Of a stretch of 64,000 bases of DNA, positions 39,825 through 47,775 are shown in pieces. The position numbers and the translations under genes are program-made. The notes beneath the pieces were generated by a model. It was not told the origin of the DNA, ran no database searches, and saw only the letters and a program-made list of their open reading frames with translations. Source of the DNA: Cryobacterium roopkundense (lineage in GTDB: Bacteria; Actinomycetota; Actinomycetes; Actinomycetales; Microbacteriaceae). The first letter of the stretch is position 1. Each line of letters begins with the position of its first letter. Location: the NCBI RefSeq assembly GCF_014200405.1, contig NZ_JACHBQ010000001.1, positions 4,092,001 to 4,156,000 on the forward strand, written 5' to 3'.

Positions 39825-41210
39825 CTACCGTGCAGCCACGCTCGTCTCTACGCGGTAGCCGGCGCCGCGGTGCTCGGTAGGCAGCCTGTCGCCGCGCCCG
39901 TGCAGCTTGTTGCGCAAGCTCCCCTCGGCGTAGGCCTCCGGGTACGCGCCGCGCTTGCGCAGCTCGGGAATGACGAACTCGATCACGTCCTCAAACGTGC
40001 CCGGGGTGATCGCGTAGGCGAGATTGAAGCCGTCCACGTCGGTGTCGGCCACCCAGTCCTGCAGGTGGTCCGCCACCTCCGCTCCCGAACCGACGACGAT
40101 GGGGCCGAGGCCGCCGATGGCACCCTGGCGTGCGATGTCGCGCACCGTCCACTCCTTGCCCTCTCCGCCGGCGCCCTGCACGTTGGACACCGCGGATTGG
40201 ATGGCGTTGCTCTTCACGTTGCCGATCGGCTCGTCGAGGTCGTAGGTGGACAGGTCGATACCCATCCAACCCGACATGAAGACGAGCGCGCCCTCCTCGC
40301 TCGCGTAGGAGAGGTAATCCTGATACTTGGCCTGGGCCTTCTCGGACGACGCGTCCGTGATGATCGTGAGTAGCGTATAGATCTTCGCGGCGTAGCGGTC
40401 CCGACCTTCGGCCTCGAGCGCGTCGCGGATCTTCTTCACGGTGGCCGTGAGCTGCGGCTTGGTCGACGCGGCGACGAAGATCGCCTCGGCGTTCTCTGCC
40501 GCGAATGTGATGCCGCGCGGCGAGGCTCCGGCCTGATAGATCACCGGGCTGCGCTGCGTAGACGGTTCGGCGAGGTGGATGCCGGGCACCGTGAAGTGTT
40601 TGCCGTGGTGGCCGATCTCGTGCACCTTGCTCGGATCGGTGAAGATGCCCGCCTCGCGGTCGCGCACCACGGCATCGTCTTCCCAAGAGCCCTCCCAGAG
40701 CTTGTAGAGCACCTCGAGGTACTCGTCCGCCACGTCATACCTGTCGTCGTGCTCTAGCTGGTCGTCGTGCCCCATGTTGCGTGCCGCAGAAGGCAGGTAG
40801 CCGGTGACGACGTTCCAGCCGACGCGACCGTTTGTCAGGTGGTCGAGCGTGGACATCCGTCGGGCGAAGGGATACGGGTGCTCGTAGGAGGTTCCGGCGG
40901 TGATGCCGAAGCCGAGGTTCTCCGTGACACTCGCCATGGCGGAGACCAGCAGGATGGGGTCGCCGACCGGAACCTGCGCGCCGTGCCGGATCGCCGCCTC
41001 GTTGCTGCCGCCGTACACGTCGTAGGTGCCGAGCACATCCGCGATGAAGATGCCGTCGAACGTGCCGGCCTCGAGCAGTTTGGCGAGGTCGGTCCAGTAG
41101 CGGAGGTCCTTGTAGCGCCATCCCTGGTCGTCGGGGTGGCGCCACAAACCGGCCGACTGGTGGGCGACGCAGTTCATGTCGAAGGCATTAAAACGAATCT
41201 GTCTGGGCAT
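39825..41210 (-). CDS. LLM class flavin-dependent monooxygenase, NtaA/SnaA/SoxA type
   Basis: A 461-residue flavin monooxygenase of the luciferase-like superfamily, NtaA/SnaA/DszA subgroup. Members use FMNH2 from a separate reductase to oxidise N- or S-containing substrates such as nitrilotriacetate or dibenzothiophene sulfone. Seen are RYWTDLAKLLEAGTFDGIFI near the start, the subgroup text SYEHPYPFARRMSTLDHLTN and GRVGWNVVTGYLPSAARNMG, and SPVIYQAGASPRGITFAAEN. No reductase gene is nearby. It is the last gene of a leftward unit with two amidohydrolases and two membrane proteins, so an N-containing substrate is likely. The start at 41210 (MPRQIRFNAFDMN) matches family N-termini; the longer frame does not. 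Confidence 0.9.
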   Translation of the reverse strand: MPRQIRFNAFDMNCVAHQSAGLWRHPDDQGWRYKDLRYWTDLAKLLEAGTFDGIFIADVLGTYDVYGGSNEAAIRHGAQVPVGDPILLVSAMASVTENLGFGITAGTSYEHPYPFARRMSTLDHLTNGRVGWNVVTGYLPSAARNMGHDDQLEHDDRYDVADEYLEVLYKLWEGSWEDDAVVRDREAGIFTDPSKVHEIGHHGKHFTVPGIHLAEPSTQRSPVIYQAGASPRGITFAAENAEAIFVAASTKPQLTATVKKIRDALEAEGRDRYAAKIYTLLTIITDASSEKAQAKYQDYLSYASEEGALVFMSGWMGIDLSTYDLDEPIGNVKSNAIQSAVSNVQGAGGEGKEWTVRDIARQGAIGGLGPIVVGSGAEVADHLQDWVADTDVDGFNLAYAITPGTFEDVIEFVIPELRKRGAYPEAYAEGSLRNKLHGRGDRLPTEHRGAGYRVETSVAAR

Positions 41211-41265
41211 GTGCCCATGATGCGCCTCGGGCGGGTGCCGTCGCATCCCGAGGTGCAACAAACCG

Positions 41266-42525
41266 TTACACGGCGCGGCCGAGTCGGAGGAGCGTGTCGA
41301 GCAGCACGTTCGCGCCGTTCTCCACATCCGGCCAGGCGGTGTTTTCCTCGGGACAGTGGCTTCTGCCCCCGATACTCGGCACGAAAATCATGCCGGTGGG
41401 AGCCAGTCGCGCCATGTTCTGCGAATCGTGTCCGGCTCCGGAGGGAAGTGAGCTGAACGTGAGGCCGCGGGCCGCGGCGGCCTCGGCAATGATCGATTGA
41501 ATGTCGGTATCGAGCCCGGTAGGAGGGATGGTGATCTCGAAATCCATCACGACCTCGAGGTCATACCGCGCCGCGATCGCCCGGGACTCGAGCACTATGG
41601 CCGCTTCCAGTGCGGCGACTCGATCGGCCCGCGCTTCGCGAAAGTCCACCGTCACCCGGGCAACCGCCGGCACCACATTCGCGCTCCCCGGCTCCACGGC
41701 CACGATCCCGGAGGTGATGACAGCCTGGTCGCTGACCGCAGCCGCGAGTTCCGGCAGGGCCACGAGTAACGCCCCGGCCCCGGTCAGGGCATTCTGGCGC
41801 CGCGTCATGGGAGTTGTCCCGGCGTGGTCGGCGCGCCCCACAAACGACACCACGCCCCCGCCGAGGGCAACGATTCCAGTGACGACCCCGATCTGGTGCT
41901 CGCGTTCCTCCAGTAGGGGCCCCTGTTCGATGTGCAGTTCCACGGTGGAGTGCAGCGTCGAGGGGTCAAGCCGGGTCGCGGCGGCGGCGTCGAGGTCGCC
42001 GCCGGCCGCCGCAAACGTCTCGGCGAAGCGATCACCGTCACGACCGGTGAGCGCCTCGAGTTCGGCGCGCGAGAACCCGCGTGCGAGCGCACTCGACCCG
42101 AACAGGTGTGCGTAGTTGCCTTCCTCGTCTGTGTAGACGACCAGGCGCACGGGCCGCGCGAGTTCGAGGTTTTCCTCCTGAATGCGCCGCACGCACTCGA
42201 GGGCGGCAAGCACGCCCAGGGTGCCGTCGAACGCGCCTCCGTTGGGAACGGTGTCGATGTGCGATCCCGACCAAACAGCCGGCAGCGCCTCGATGTTCTC
42301 TGCGAACACCGGCGACACGATCAGGTTTCCGATCCCGTCGGCCGTCACCGTGAGCCCGGCCTCGGCGCACCGGGCGAGCAACCACGCGCGGGCCTCGCCA
42401 TCCGCTGCCGAGAAGGATGTGCGATCGATGCCTCCGCCGGGGCCGCGCCCGATGCGGCCCAGGGCCTGCAGGTCGGCGATGAGTCGAGGGCCGTTCACGG
42501 CGAGCCGGCCGGGGCGCGCGCTCAA
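41266..42525 (-). CDS. Zn-dependent hydrolase, allantoate amidohydrolase/N-carbamoylase type
   Basis: A 419-residue M20-clan metal hydrolase of the hydantoinase/carbamoylase group, which hydrolyses N-carbamoyl amino acids, allantoate or ureidoglycolate. Metal-site motifs: SGSHIDTVPNGGAFDG (near 95), VVYTDEEGNYAHLF (near 130), ELHIEQGPLLEE (near 195), GHDSQNM and SRSHCPEE-like text as GGRSHCPEENT (near 400). The AGTTPMTRRQNAL stretch is typical of the dimerisation domain. The start is a TTG overlapping the upstream stop (TTGA); a GTG nine codons in is an alternative. It works in a unit with M20D amidohydrolase and a flavin monooxygenase. The true substrate is unknown. Confidence 0.87.
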   Translation of the reverse strand: MSARPGRLAVNGPRLIADLQALGRIGRGPGGGIDRTSFSAADGEARAWLLARCAEAGLTVTADGIGNLIVSPVFAENIEALPAVWSGSHIDTVPNGGAFDGTLGVLAALECVRRIQEENLELARPVRLVVYTDEEGNYAHLFGSSALARGFSRAELEALTGRDGDRFAETFAAAGGDLDAAAATRLDPSTLHSTVELHIEQGPLLEEREHQIGVVTGIVALGGGVVSFVGRADHAGTTPMTRRQNALTGAGALLVALPELAAAVSDQAVITSGIVAVEPGSANVVPAVARVTVDFREARADRVAALEAAIVLESRAIAARYDLEVVMDFEITIPPTGLDTDIQSIIAEAAAARGLTFSSLPSGAGHDSQNMARLAPTGMIFVPSIGGRSHCPEENTAWPDVENGANVLLDTLLRLGRAV

Positions 42526-43760
42526 GCGGCACCGCCCGTCGTGCCGACCTTCGACAGGATGGCCGTGAGGGCGGCCGTCAGGCCCGCCGCAAGGGCCGGC
42601 TCCGGGTCTGGCGCGAAATGCGGCGAGTGATTGCCGGCAACACTGTCAACAGAGTCGATGCTCTGCTGGGAATATCCACCGAACATCCAGTACACGGACG
42701 GCACGCCGATCGCCTCGGCGAGCAGGCCGAAGTCTTCGCTGCCCATAACCGGGGGCACCTCAAAGATGGCATCTTCCCCGAGGGAGTGGCTGAGTGCGGC
42801 GATCAACTTCTCGGTGGCCGCTGGGTCGTTGTAGCAGCGCGGGAAGGTCGACAGCACCTCGATTGTCGGTTCGGGCGCAGCGGATGCCTGCGCTTCCGCC
42901 GCGATGATACGCCGCACTGAATCGAGAACCCTGGTGCGAACCCCGAGGTCGAAGGTGCGCATGTTGATCGTGAACTCGGCGGTGGCGGGAATGATGTTTT
43001 CCTTCAGCCCGCCGTGGAAGGTGCCGACGGTAACAACGGCTGATTTCATGGGGTGAACCTCGCGCGCGACGACGGTTTGCAGGCGCACGACCATGTGCGC
43101 CCCGAGCACGATCGGGTCAATCGACTGGTCGGGCTGAGAACCGTGGGCCTGGCGCCCGTGCACTGTGACCTTCCAGGAATCGGCCATCGCCATGGCTACG
43201 CCGCTGCTGATATCGATGGTCCCGGCGAGTCCCGGCCACACGTGCTGGCCGTAGATGATCTCCGGGTGCGGTGCGCGGTCCCACAGGCCGTCCTCGACCA
43301 TGGCGCGTGCTCCTGCGCCGGTTTCTTCGCCGGGCTGGAAGATGAAGACCAGGGTGCCTGCCCAGTCGGCCCGGTTGTCGACGAGGTGTTCGGCGGCGGT
43401 GAGAGCCACGGCCATATGAGTGTCGTGGCCGCAGCCGTGCATCGCCGGCACGTCGGTTCCGTCGGCGAGGGTGCCCCGCGCCACGCTGGCGTAGGCGAGA
43501 CCGGTCTCCTCGGCGATGGGCAGCCCATCGGTGTCGGCGCGGAAGCCGATGGTCGGTCCGGCCCCGTTGCGCAGCACGCCCACCACTCCGGTGCCGCCGC
43601 AGCGGAAGGTCTCCAGGCCCAGAGCGTCGAGACGCGTGGCGATGAAGTCGGCGGTGGCCGATTCCTGCATGGACAGCTCGGGGTGGGCGTGCAAAAACCT
43701 GTACAGCTCGTGCATCTTCCGGGCGGTCACATCAGTATTCTGCGGGATGGTCAGTGTCAT
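42522..43760 (-). CDS. M20D amidohydrolase (hippurate hydrolase type)
   Basis: A 412-residue M20D metal hydrolase that cleaves N-acyl amino acids (hippurate hydrolase, N-acetyl-diaminopimelate deacetylase, IAA-amino acid hydrolase relatives). GFRADTDGLPIAEETGLAYA, MHGCGHDTHMAVALTA and VFIFQPGEETGAGARAMVED (near 75, 115 and 145) carry the metal ligands, with GHDTH and PGEE. The dimerisation domain begins near VTVHGRQAHGSQP and the C-terminal metal histidine is near NHSPHFAPD. It overlaps the preceding membrane-protein gene by ATGA and the following hydrolase by TTGA, so products are made in fixed ratio. Acyl specificity is unknown. Confidence 0.88.
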   Translation of the reverse strand: MTLTIPQNTDVTARKMHELYRFLHAHPELSMQESATADFIATRLDALGLETFRCGGTGVVGVLRNGAGPTIGFRADTDGLPIAEETGLAYASVARGTLADGTDVPAMHGCGHDTHMAVALTAAEHLVDNRADWAGTLVFIFQPGEETGAGARAMVEDGLWDRAPHPEIIYGQHVWPGLAGTIDISSGVAMAMADSWKVTVHGRQAHGSQPDQSIDPIVLGAHMVVRLQTVVAREVHPMKSAVVTVGTFHGGLKENIIPATAEFTINMRTFDLGVRTRVLDSVRRIIAAEAQASAAPEPTIEVLSTFPRCYNDPAATEKLIAALSHSLGEDAIFEVPPVMGSEDFGLLAEAIGVPSVYWMFGGYSQQSIDSVDSVAGNHSPHFAPDPEPALAAGLTAALTAILSKVGTTGGAA

Positions 43761-44482
43761 GATGTCTCTTTCGTGGATTCGGGTTGGGACTTTTTTCGGA
43801 GGAACCAGGCCAGGATGGCCGTGGCGACGACGGTAATGCCGGTGGCGAGATTGGCCACTGCTGGAACGGCGGGAATGATCACAAAGAACACGACGGCCGC
43901 CGTGGCGATCGCGATGAACGTGATGCGGGCCTGTTTCAGGGAGACCACCAGCTGCACGACGACCGCGCCGATGATGCTGGGGAAAATATAGAGGCGGGCC
44001 ACGTCGGTGACGTCTGCCGGCACAATGCTCACGAGCCAGGACCCCAGCACGCCCACGAAGACGAGCATGAAGAACACGTGCACCATTGCGGCGCCGCAGA
44101 TGGCCATCAGCGCGGAAAACTCACCCCGTTTTGTTCCGGCCTTGGCGCCGATCGACGCCTGCGCGACGAGGGCGGAGGGCAGCAGCTTGTTGGCGATATT
44201 GCCGATCATGAAGGCCTGGTACATCGTGGCAGGCCCGAGGATCGGGTAGTAGGTGATGGGTTCGACGACCCACAAGACGGAGAAGACCGCGGCGACGGCG
44301 AAGAACGCGGTCCACACCTGCACCTGGGTGATGCCGAGGTCGGCGAAGAGCACGAGGTACAGCGGTGCCGCGAGGGACATGATCAGCGCCGCGATCATGG
44401 TGAGGCGTCCCCACCGGGACGTCGTGCGATCGAACACCGCCAAATCGGCGGACTGTGCGGAAGTCACTGTTGTGGAGGACAT
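43757..44482 (-). CDS. Unnamed membrane protein, partner of DUF5058 protein
   Basis: A 241-residue integral membrane protein that I cannot place in a characterised family. A soluble N-terminal stretch of about 30 residues is followed by about seven hydrophobic segments; the clearest motif is PILGPATMYQAFMIGNIANK (residues 83-102), continued by LLPSALVAQASIGAKAGTKR, a conserved-looking, polar-lined loop. It lies 28 bases after the DUF5058 gene and its stop overlaps the M20D start (ATGA). The pairing with another membrane protein and with two cytoplasmic amidohydrolases suggests that the two form a small transporter for the substrate of these enzymes; this is inference. Confidence 0.75.
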   Translation of the reverse strand: MSSTTVTSAQSADLAVFDRTTSRWGRLTMIAALIMSLAAPLYLVLFADLGITQVQVWTAFFAVAAVFSVLWVVEPITYYPILGPATMYQAFMIGNIANKLLPSALVAQASIGAKAGTKRGEFSALMAICGAAMVHVFFMLVFVGVLGSWLVSIVPADVTDVARLYIFPSIIGAVVVQLVVSLKQARITFIAIATAAVVFFVIIPAVPAVANLATGITVVATAILAWFLRKKSQPESTKETS

Positions 44483-44510
44483 GCTGGCCTTTCTCGGAGT
44501 CGGAGGGGAA

Positions 44511-45266
44511 TCAGGCGATCGGCGCGAGGCCGCTGCTGTGGGCGGCGTACGCCACAATCAGGCCGATCACGATCGAGAATCCGAGGCCCCATTCGCGGAG
44601 CCAGCCCTGCTGGAATCGGTGGGCCGCGAGCAGGCACACGCCCATGACCACTGCAGAGGTGAGCACGGTGAGAACGTGGATGGGAGTCTTGCCGAGTTCG
44701 GCGATTCCGAGGCTGGCAAAGGCCCCCAGTAGCGCCGCCGCGGGAATGATAGCCATGAGCGCGGGGTTCACGGTGCGCAAGCGGGAGTCACCGCGCTTGA
44801 GAAGCGGAGTGAGAACGAGGGTGGCGATCATCCACATCGCCCCGGAGAGGCTCATCGCCATGAAGGCAACCGCGAAGACGGCCTGCGTGTAGCTCGCGTC
44901 GCCGAGGGCCGCGCCCATGGTGGACGCCGCGATGCTGGCTGAGGCGGTTTCGGTTGCCGCCGAACCCACCAGGCCCACCCGCACCAGCACTGCCGGGCCG
45001 CCGAACAGGCTGAGCAGCGCAACGCTGACAAGCACCACGGCCAGGGACGGTCCGATCGCGGCGACGGCGCCCGCCCGAAAGGAGGTCCTGAGTTCGGCCT
45101 GGGTGATTCCGGCCGCCGGGGCGGCGATCCGTGCGGCGCGCATATAGATGACCGTCTGCAGGATGATGGCCGCGAAGATGCCGACCGCGAAAATCCACAG
45201 AATCGGCGCGTTGGCGATCGACAGGATGTCGGTTGAATCGGGGTCACCGGGAAGAGCTGACGGCAT
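44511..45266 (-). CDS. DUF5058 family membrane protein
   Basis: A 251-residue membrane protein recognised as DUF5058: the opening DILSIANAPILWIFAVGIFA and the RTSFRAGAVAAIGPSLAVVL block (near residue 62) are typical. It shows about seven membrane helices, some rich in small residues (SASIAASTMGAALGDASYTQ), as in transporters. The ATG is preceded by AGGAGG four bases upstream. It is the first gene of the leftward unit with the second membrane protein, two amidohydrolases and the flavin monooxygenase, and is divergent from the tandem AsnC regulator. No member of the family has an established function as far as I know. Confidence 0.82.
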   Translation of the reverse strand: MPSALPGDPDSTDILSIANAPILWIFAVGIFAAIILQTVIYMRAARIAAPAAGITQAELRTSFRAGAVAAIGPSLAVVLVSVALLSLFGGPAVLVRVGLVGSAATETASASIAASTMGAALGDASYTQAVFAVAFMAMSLSGAMWMIATLVLTPLLKRGDSRLRTVNPALMAIIPAAALLGAFASLGIAELGKTPIHVLTVLTSAVVMGVCLLAAHRFQQGWLREWGLGFSIVIGLIVAYAAHSSGLAPIA

Positions 45267-45371
45267 GGTGCCTCCTGGGCTGGAATGCGGGTGGGATCGG
45301 ACGTGCTGGTAGGTTCGGCGCTAGGAACGACGCGTTTCCCAGCGGAATTCACGGACGAAACGGAGTGGTTT

Positions 45372-46331
45372 GTGCGGCTACTTGACCCCCTGGAGCGGCG
45401 GATCGTGGCAGCCCTGCAGTTGGACGGGCGAAGCCCGTGGCGCAGGATCGCCGAGGTGTTGAACGAGCCGGAACGCACGGTCGCTCGCCGGGGCACCGAA
45501 CTTCTCGACGCCAAGCTCGTGCAGGTTGCCGCGCTGCGTCCGCAAGCCACCTCCGTGATTCTGCGCGTGCAGAGCGCGCCGGGCACGACTCGCGCCGCCG
45601 CGAACGCCCTCGCCCAGCGCCGTGATTCGACCTTCGCCTATACGATGACCGGCGGGGTCGACTGCGTGGCCGAGATCCTCACCCGGCGCGAGCGGATGCC
45701 TGCCCTGCTCACCGACGAGGTCCCAGGGACCGTGGGGCTGGTGCGGGCGGTGAGTTACCCCGTGCTGCGGTACTTCCGCACCATTCGTGGCTGGCAACCG
45801 GATCTGCTGACGCACGTCGAGGCGAGCGCCCTGAGTGCAGGCGTGACAAACGACACCTGGACTTTGCAGCCTCCCCTGCGGCTGAGTACGGTGGACAACG
45901 AAATTGTCGGCGCCCTCTGCCGGGATGGACGGGTGTCGTGTGAACGCCTGGCCCGGCTCGCCGGGGTGTCGAACGCCACCGCACGCCGCCGCACCGACTG
46001 GCTGCTGCAGAACAACCACGTTTACATTCGCGCCGTGGTCGAACCGGCGAGCGTGGGTCTTCCGGTCGAGGCTTTTCTGTGGATCAGAAGCGAACCCCAC
46101 AAGGTCGAGGCCGTGGGCCGGGAACTCGCAGCGTCGCCCCTGGTGAGGTACGCGGCGGCGGTCGCCGGCGATTACCAGATCGTGGCGAACGTCACCGCGA
46201 AAGACTCCGCAGCCCTGTACGCCTGTGTCACATCGGCACCCTGGGTCGCCCACACTAAATCGATCGACATCAGCTTGCTGCTGGGGGCATTCAAGCGAGG
46301 CGGTCGGGTGCTGAACCCGGCACACGCGTGA
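45372..46331 (+). CDS. Tandem Lrp/AsnC-type transcriptional regulator
   Basis: A 319-residue regulator that contains two copies of the AsnC layout (HTH plus RAM-type ligand domain) in one chain. The first HTH is LDPLERRIVAALQLDGRSPW (residues 3-22) with RIAEVLNEPERTVARRGTEL following. The second begins near LSTVDNEIVGALCRDGRVSC with ERLARLAGVSNATARRRTDW. The two RAM-like domains are weaker. GTG 45372 is chosen because GGAG lies six bases upstream; an in-frame start 29 codons earlier (45285) would leave only 18 bases to the divergent DUF5058 gene. It likely controls that operon and perhaps the convergent amidase, sensing an amino acid or amide. Single-domain Lrp proteins are about half this size. 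Confidence 0.85.
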   Translation: MRLLDPLERRIVAALQLDGRSPWRRIAEVLNEPERTVARRGTELLDAKLVQVAALRPQATSVILRVQSAPGTTRAAANALAQRRDSTFAYTMTGGVDCVAEILTRRERMPALLTDEVPGTVGLVRAVSYPVLRYFRTIRGWQPDLLTHVEASALSAGVTNDTWTLQPPLRLSTVDNEIVGALCRDGRVSCERLARLAGVSNATARRRTDWLLQNNHVYIRAVVEPASVGLPVEAFLWIRSEPHKVEAVGRELAASPLVRYAAAVAGDYQIVANVTAKDSAALYACVTSAPWVAHTKSIDISLLLGAFKRGGRVLNPAHA

Positions 46332-46347
46332 GGGCATCCGGCTCATC

Positions 46348-47775
46348 TCAGCGGCCGACGCTCAGCAGTTCGGGTGCCCGGCGAGCATGGTGTGTCGCCT
46401 GCTCGTACGCGAACCCAACCTGCAGCAGGTTGACGTCGCGGCCGTGGTTCATGGCCAGCTGCATGCCCACCGGGAGCCCGCTGTCGCTGAAGCCCGCGGG
46501 CATGCACAGGGCAGGAATCCCCATTGCGGACACGACGCACGCCGATCGCATCCACTCGAGGTAGGTGTCGAATTCGATCCCCTTGACGGTTCGCGGGTAG
46601 CGCCAGCTGGCGTCGAAGGGCAGCAGTTGCGCGGCGGGGCTGGCGAACACGTCGAACCGGGTGAAGAAGTGCCGGGTAGCCGCCGCGAGTCTGGTGCGCG
46701 CCAGCGCCGATTCCACGACATCCGCTCCCGTAAGTGCGAGGCCCCGCGCCACGTTCCACCGCACCTCTGCCTTGATGTCCTCGGCGTGGTCGGCAACGAG
46801 GTCGCCGTACGCCAGCGCGAAGTCGAGCGAACGCACCGTGTCGAAGACGACGTCGGCGTCCCGCAGATCGGGGGAGGCCTCCTCTACTATCGCGCCCAGG
46901 TCTTCAAAGACGCGCAGCTGGCCCTCGAGCACCCGCAACACTTCCTTCTGCACCGGAATCCCGAGCCCGAAGTCTGGCGACCAGCCGATCCGCAGGCCGG
47001 TGAGATCGCGCTCGAGCGGTTCGCGAAAACTGGACGCCGGCACCGGGCAGTGGAAGGGTGTCGACGCATCCGTACCGGTCAGAACGCTCATCGCCAGCGC
47101 CACGTCGGTGACCTCTCTGGCCATGGGGCCCGTGCGAGCGAGCCAGCCCCAGGCATTGCGCGAGGGGGCTAGCGGGATCATGCCCAGGGATGGGCGGAAG
47201 CCCACCACGTTGCAGAAGGAAGCCGGAATACGCAACGACCCACCCATATCGCTGCCGTCGCCGATCGACTGGATGCGCGCGGCCAGGGCCGCTGCCACGC
47301 CTCCACTGCTACCGCCCGCGCTCAACCGGGGATCGTAGGGGTTGGTGGTGGTACCGAAGACCTCGTTGAAGGTGTGCGATCCGGCCGCGAATTCCGGAAC
47401 GTTGCTCTTGCCCGTGGTGACCACGCCCGCGGCCTTGAAGCGGGCCACGATGAGGTCATCGTGGTCTGGCACGTTGTCGGCGAACAGCGGGGAACCGAAG
47501 GTCGTGCGCAGCCCGGCCGTGCTGTGGGTGTCTTTGTGGGTCATGGGAACGCCGTGCAGGGGTGGCAGTACGGCGCCGCTCCGGGTCAGGGCGTCGGCCG
47601 CCTCCGCCTGTCGGGCGGCGCCTGCCCTGTCCAGGGTGACGATCGCGTTGATGCGGGGATTGACCCTGTCGATCTGGTCCATGTGCGCCTCGAGCGCCTC
47701 TCGCGCCGAGAGCTCGCGCGCACGTATGAGCCGTGACACATCGGATGCCGACAGTGCGGTGATCTCCTCGTTCAC
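46348..47775 (-). CDS. Amidase (amidase signature family)
   Basis: A 475-residue cytoplasmic amidase of the amidase signature family with the Ser-cisSer-Lys triad. The lysine is in PMTHKDTHSTAG (near residue 80), the middle serine in LSAGGSSGGVAAALAAR (near 155) and the nucleophile in GSDMGGSLRIPASFCNVVGF (near 178). Specificity between aliphatic amides, aryl acetamides or Glu-tRNA amide transfer cannot be read, but no gatB is near, so a small-molecule amidase is likely. The GTG at 47775 follows GGGGGAAG. It is convergent with the tandem AsnC regulator and may belong to the same catabolic block. Confidence 0.9.
   Translation of the reverse strand: MNEEITALSASDVSRLIRARELSAREALEAHMDQIDRVNPRINAIVTLDRAGAARQAEAADALTRSGAVLPPLHGVPMTHKDTHSTAGLRTTFGSPLFADNVPDHDDLIVARFKAAGVVTTGKSNVPEFAAGSHTFNEVFGTTTNPYDPRLSAGGSSGGVAAALAARIQSIGDGSDMGGSLRIPASFCNVVGFRPSLGMIPLAPSRNAWGWLARTGPMAREVTDVALAMSVLTGTDASTPFHCPVPASSFREPLERDLTGLRIGWSPDFGLGIPVQKEVLRVLEGQLRVFEDLGAIVEEASPDLRDADVVFDTVRSLDFALAYGDLVADHAEDIKAEVRWNVARGLALTGADVVESALARTRLAAATRHFFTRFDVFASPAAQLLPFDASWRYPRTVKGIEFDTYLEWMRSACVVSAMGIPALCMPAGFSDSGLPVGMQLAMNHGRDVNLLQVGFAYEQATHHARRAPELLSVGR

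Follow-up and report, generated by a model that had tools for sequence, protein, structure and literature searches.

Gene content of the locus

The 64-kb stretch of the Cryobacterium roopkundense genome analyzed here (the window; the genome comprises 4.53 Mb in two contigs) carries at positions 41,266-47,775 a block of six genes in the order F-R-A-B-C-D, adjoined on the D side by a seventh gene, E (Table 1). For protein A the nearest named relatives were from Cryobacterium. Open reading frames (ORFs) together with Pfam and NCBIfam matches confirmed all seven genes of the families that a first-pass annotation of this DNA had named. The same annotation described stop/start overlaps along the leftward genes; these were found as four-base overlaps between B and C (43,757-43,760) and between C and D (42,522-42,525), but not between A and B, which are spaced by 28 bp, nor between D and E. 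The most likely start codon of E is the ATG at 41,210, as an ATG occupies the matching position in 18 of 20 E orthologues, and this start leaves a gap of 55 bp after D. The amidase gene F does converge on the regulator gene R, as had been stated, with 16 bp between them. A scan for sigma-70 promoters returned no sites. Foreign origin was considered on the basis of base composition, which gave no signal (GC content of the block 0.671; 6.5-kb stretches of the window, mean 0.675, standard deviation 0.015).

Table 1. Features at the locus, with positions in the window.
Feature	Position	Strand	Basis
F, amidase-signature hydrolase, 475 aa	46,348..47,775	-	Pfam Amidase, NF005686, motifs, neighborhood
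R, double-AsnC/Lrp-type regulator, 319 aa from the proposed start (ORF from 45,285)	45,372..46,331	+	Pfam
Putative divergent A/R control region	about 45,267..45,371		Alignment of seven loci
A, DUF5058 membrane protein, 251 aa	44,511..45,266	-	PF16481
B, membrane protein without a family name, 241 aa	43,757..44,482	-	Constant neighbor of A
C, M20D aminoacylase-type hydrolase, 412 aa	42,522..43,760	-	TIGR01891, match to 6slf
D, hydantoinase/carbamoylase-family hydrolase, 419 aa	41,266..42,525	-	TIGR01879, NF006771, match to 3n5f
Conserved element about 60 bp 5′ of E, across the D stop codon	41,253..41,271	-	Comparison of E orthologues
E, DmoA/LadA-like FMN-dependent monooxygenase, 461 aa, outside the module	39,825..41,210	-	TIGR03860, match to 6ak1

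Conservation of the block among relatives

We gathered 52 loci bearing A and, after removal of two duplicates (L044, identical to L011, and L096, identical to L034; loci and genomes are given by L and G numbers), tallied the 50 non-redundant ones with a single script. Twenty-six of the 52 were found through peptide patterns built from the window's own A, six came from a search of the family (398 genomes, with matches in 7, one of them the window's own), and 20 were selected, with a view to spread, among the 45 places that a search of the order listed (42 of 396 genomes matched). The tallied flanks reached at most about 10 kb, and annotation covered some of the neighbors. The count of R-like genes relied on tblastn alone, which missed a double-AsnC gene of L093 that Pfam recognized. 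One further locus, L123, was found afterwards and stands outside the tally.

B directly followed A on the same strand in all 50 loci, so that the two membrane proteins are co-encoded throughout. An M20D gene came after B in 45 loci, where it was of the C type in 42 and of a second M20D type in three (L041, L103 and L104); the best solved relatives of the second type are HmrA, a Xaa-Arg dipeptidase and an aminobenzoyl-glutamate hydrolase. F was located beside A in 25 loci, in 11 of them in line after C (L014, L015, L016, L029, L088 and six loci of a single genus, g323), and an R-like gene of at least 34% identity was beside A in 19; four more, of 23-28% identity, lay no farther than 4.3 kb away. 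Carbamoylase genes of either kind were present in 10 loci: five, all from Cryobacterium, had a D-type gene placed after C, and five (L014, L015, L016, L029 and L088) had another carbamoylase, 37-38% identical to D, placed before A. In no locus of the 50 did E adjoin the block, the position after D not being visible in L010, where the contig ends inside D. A-B-C is thus the conserved core, D is a lineage-specific addition and E lies outside. These counts contradict the view that the five leftward genes form one conserved unit; the conservation in distant genera that the first-pass annotation had proposed to look for was seen for A-B-C, in part for F and R, and not for E.

Hydrolases of the block

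C belongs to the M20D aminoacylase/amidohydrolase family (TIGR01891, 261 bits, cut-off 153.75) and carries the motifs HGCGHD at 108, PGEE at 143, GQHV at 171 and GNHSP at 376, which we take to be the M20D metal-site ligands. Its best match among solved structures, 6slf, an N-alpha-acyl-glutamine aminoacylase, scored 306 bits and the next one 165. By this resemblance, C is predicted to act as an enzyme closest to N-acyl-glutamine aminoacylase.

D is a member of the hydantoinase/carbamoylase family (TIGR01879, 318 bits, cut-off 204), scored 409.8 bits with NF006771 (cut-off 399) and had as its best solved match 3n5f, an L-carbamoylase. Two more specific identities were rejected, as D fell below the equivalog cut-offs for the allantoate deiminase AllC (TIGR03176, 236.3 bits, cut-off 597.75) and for the N-carbamyl-L-glutamate amidohydrolase ErtE (NF058540, 340.5 bits, cut-off 520). 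The carbamoylase encoded before A in L014 (Arthrobacter) is ErtE-like and, at 489.7 bits, is also under the latter cut-off. No hydantoinase was detected among the block genes by Pfam or NCBIfam, and the block does not qualify as a hydantoin-utilization cluster; the sole D-hydantoinase of the genome that exceeded a curated cut-off is encoded about 365 kb from it.

F is an amidase-signature protein (Pfam Amidase, 312.9 bits; NF005686, 485.7 bits, cut-off 465), with HKD, GGSSGG and GSDMGGS at 80, 154 and 174, presumably the Lys-Ser-Ser motifs of the family.

Membrane pair and regulator

A matched PF16481 (DUF5058) with 195.3 bits (cut-off 28.2) and no family beyond this domain of unknown function, while B matched nothing in Pfam or NCBIfam at 0.001 and has 681 relatives. 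Six clear hydrophobic segments were found in each protein, and no homology of A and B to each other was seen. DUF5058 and three related phrases returned no paper in a full-text search of open-licence PubMed Central, and it is for that literature only that the module can be called undescribed.

Several variants of the pair were observed. In L123 (6672-9048; genome G1169) B is split by an insertion of about 1.6 kb with a 464-aa ORF that, judged by eye, resembles a transposase. In L103 (5869-10094) and L104 (7937-12178) a divergent A-B pair (38-44% identical) is accompanied by an M20D gene of the second type and by a divergent AsnC-like gene, and their genomes, G1073 and G823, also carry an ordinary A. 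In Brevibacterium (L033, 8652-12680) the pair occurs without an M20D gene, flanked by tyramine oxidase subunit B-like and beta-aspartyl-peptidase-like genes, possibly indicating a different substrate for the same pair.

In R, Pfam recognizes HTH_AsnC in two stretches, together with an AsnC ligand domain. Its start is most likely the GTG at 45,372 and not 45,285, judging from the alignment to more distant relatives, which begins only near 45,372, and from an ATG at the corresponding position in L010 and L039 (two of seven aligned loci). This start sets the limits of the putative control region between the divergent A and R, which is partly conserved within Cryobacterium and in which a search for inverted repeats gave no clear operator.

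Relation of the monooxygenase gene to the block

E is a member of the NtaA/DmoA family (TIGR03860, 553 bits, cut-off 279.7), and resembles over its full length DmoA (6ak1, 576 bits) and LadA (474 bits), with nitrilotriacetate monooxygenase far behind (201 bits). It agrees with DmoA at 15 of the 17 single binding positions named in the DmoA report (PMC9259527) and differs at positions 137 and 231. According to the same report, no methanethiol was detected from recombinant DmoA fractions (PMC9259527), and the label DmoA therefore leaves the substrate of E unfixed.

E-like genes are frequent, being found in 90 of 150 genomes of the family at an expectation value of at most 1e-100, a threshold that admits homologues down to about 40% identity, and in 19 of 41 genomes of the genus at 1e-80, as compared with 6 of 41 for A. 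Within 1.5 kb of 11 E orthologues, no gene of the block (A, B, C, D, F or R) was present. G1169 carries E (95% identical) at the same site, next to hemB, hemL and DUF1304; the block is absent there (L114) and is found about 160 kb away (L123). A relative of E with 33% identity is encoded on the opposite strand, more than 7 kb from the block, in L012 (14550-18504) and L013 (17633-18901); between the two in L012 are genes for an ABC permease and an NMT1/THI5-like binding protein.

The 19-bp element upstream of E is identical in L114 and occurs only once in the window when up to three mismatches are allowed. The pattern TGTGACGNNNTGTNNCG was derived from 14 E-upstream sequences, so that a count on those would be circular and only 20 fresh E orthologues test it. 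Its best match fell at -56 to -63 in 16 of these (the exceptions being L142, L143, L144 and L146), compared with at most 6 of 20 in any of 500 shuffles, and the mean number of mismatches over all 20 was 1.45, compared with a lowest shuffled mean of 4.3; 14 of the 20 are from the same genus, and the shuffles preserve base make-up only. As E orthologues share ancestry, the element shows conservation and not function, and it would set E apart as a unit of its own. E is a separate gene, a chance neighbor of the block and not a member of the module. Being separable, nearest to DmoA/LadA and equipped with its own upstream element, it implies no oxidation of an N-heterocycle, and the NtaA-type oxidation of an N-containing compound proposed earlier is not borne out.

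History of the site and a second copy

The segment 39,789-47,947 of the window, between DUF1304 and an ABC-2 permease gene, appears as a variable site that is empty, holds E alone, or holds E with the block. In G1168 and G1181 (L115 and L116) DUF1304 adjoins the ABC-2 permease gene with neither E nor the block, and in L117 and L118 the interval from the hem genes to the permease gene contains neither E nor any gene of the block. Similarity to the other Cryobacterium blocks extends from 41,274 to 47,775 or 47,776, and with L114 it stops at 41,272 (blastn) or about 41,279 (local alignment), so that two segments meet within about 10 bases of the D stop codon. The ABC-2 genes are missing from the E site of G1169, and a deletion there is therefore conceivable; since the block of that genome has another address, separate histories of E and the block are the simpler reading.

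A second, decayed copy of the block is present in the same genome (L039, 8444-11038; G000:C1, about 1,744,443-1,747,037). Its R and F are intact and A is cut after about 29 codons, where two zinc carboxypeptidase (M14) genes adjoin the truncation; no match to B, C or D was found in the 20 kb fetched. L039 and L009 share 88% DNA identity over 2.7 kb, compared with 76% for the window block and L009. Between L039 and L011, identity is 93.8% for R and 87.6% for F, above the 85% of hemL when compared with the genome of L011 (G141), and the broken copy may, on these identities, be a recent arrival.

Comparison with known systems

The hydantoin-utilization (hyu) clusters of Arthrobacter combine an L-carbamoylase with a dedicated transporter. 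The block likewise combines a carbamoylase of the same superfamily with a membrane gene for putative transport, but it has no hydantoinase, and A and B match no transporter family. In abgAB-abgT, for aminobenzoyl-glutamate utilization, an M20D hydrolase is accompanied by its own transporter. An M20D hydrolase with its own putative transporter is also what we see here, and both C and the second M20D type weakly match 3io1; the differences lie in the two-protein pair, whose only Pfam match is DUF5058 in A, and in the regulator and the extra hydrolases. The yjiH-yjiG-iadA genes of Escherichia coli (L108) are similar in layout, with a small membrane-protein pair followed by an amidohydrolase (dipeptidase). 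In this Gate-pair comparison no similarity was seen between A and YjiH or between B and YjiH or YjiG, in shallow alignments with an effective number of sequences (Neff) below 2.

The Corynebacterium aminoacylase 6slf aligns with C over nearly the full length and shares the HxCGHD-, PGEE- and NH-type motifs. Extracts of the literature on this N-alpha-acyl-glutamine aminoacylase attribute to it the release of odor acids from glutamine conjugates (PMC7692034); unlike the block, no DUF5058 pair, amidase or regulator is described in them alongside the enzyme.

Proposed function and alternatives

From gene content, family membership and neighborhood we propose a substrate class, import by A and B, an order of steps and a mode of regulation: F-R-A-B-C-D would be a regulated module for the scavenging of N-blocked amino acids, by import, stripping and sensing, a proposal whose chances we judge to be evenly balanced. 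A and B would act as a two-protein permease that brings in N-acyl- or N-carbamoyl-amino acids or their amides; C would hydrolyze the N-acyl bond, D would remove the N-carbamoyl group and F would hydrolyze the carboxamide. The AsnC-type ligand domain of R would sense the freed amino acid or the substrate, and R would control the divergent A-D operon. Of the earlier idea that the genes import an N-substituted compound and strip it down, a conserved module plausible for N-substituted amino acids is retained, and the monooxygenase step is dropped. The association of the A-B pair with two kinds of M20D enzyme would be in keeping with a permease for the substrates of both, and nothing hints more clearly at N-carbamoyl compounds among these substrates than the recruitment of two carbamoylases to opposite ends of the operon. 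We also put forward, tentatively and with somewhat more doubt than confidence, that A and B constitute a two-subunit transporter family new to the literature and dedicated to N-acyl/N-carbamoyl amino acids, the transport half of a scavenging module common to several actinobacterial families.

Several observations weigh against the scavenging module. F is absent from half of the loci and a carbamoylase from most, so that neither is essential, and five loci (L030-L033 and L094) have no M20D gene. Other transporter genes were found near some copies (L017 has one of the GntP type, L094 an amino acid permease and L041 an oligopeptide ABC transporter), and a profile search with A and B against solved structures gave no match. 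Dipeptides are possible substrates given the dipeptidase-like relatives of the second M20D type, and A and B could then import dipeptides or short peptides, with C as a dipeptidase-like M20D enzyme and the carbamoylase and amidase as accessories. The beta-aspartyl-peptidase-like gene that stands in place of the M20D gene in L033 points the same way. We nevertheless regard peptide import as unlikely, since the enzyme in 42 of the 50 loci is of the C type, with an N-acyl-glutamine aminoacylase as best solved relative, and since carbamoylases were recruited in 10.

A different view of the pair, that it serves product export or another membrane role beside the hydrolases and is no importer, draws on the same want of a transport-family match or solved relative. 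This we find rather improbable, as A-B is more constant than anything else at the locus, the annotated neighbors include no other constantly present transporter, and catabolic hydrolases would require their substrate inside the cell. The notion that all five leftward genes serve one pathway, in which E oxidizes the imported N-substituted compound ahead of hydrolysis, could appeal to the position of E on the same strand 55 bp past D, with no terminator-like site listed between them, so that read-through from D to E is possible in this one genome. It is very improbable and E was rejected as a pathway member, given its absence from beside the block in the tally, the lack of block genes at its orthologues, the distance between the two in G1169 and the upstream element of its own.

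Implications

If the scavenging module is real, it would provide a function for DUF5058 and for the B family with its hundreds of members, and aminoacylases of the acyl-glutamine type would gain a transporter and a regulator. The exclusion of E corrects an operon call that pointed to a spurious oxidation step. The module would also offer a clue as to how Cryobacterium, Arthrobacter and their relatives harvest N-blocked amino acids.

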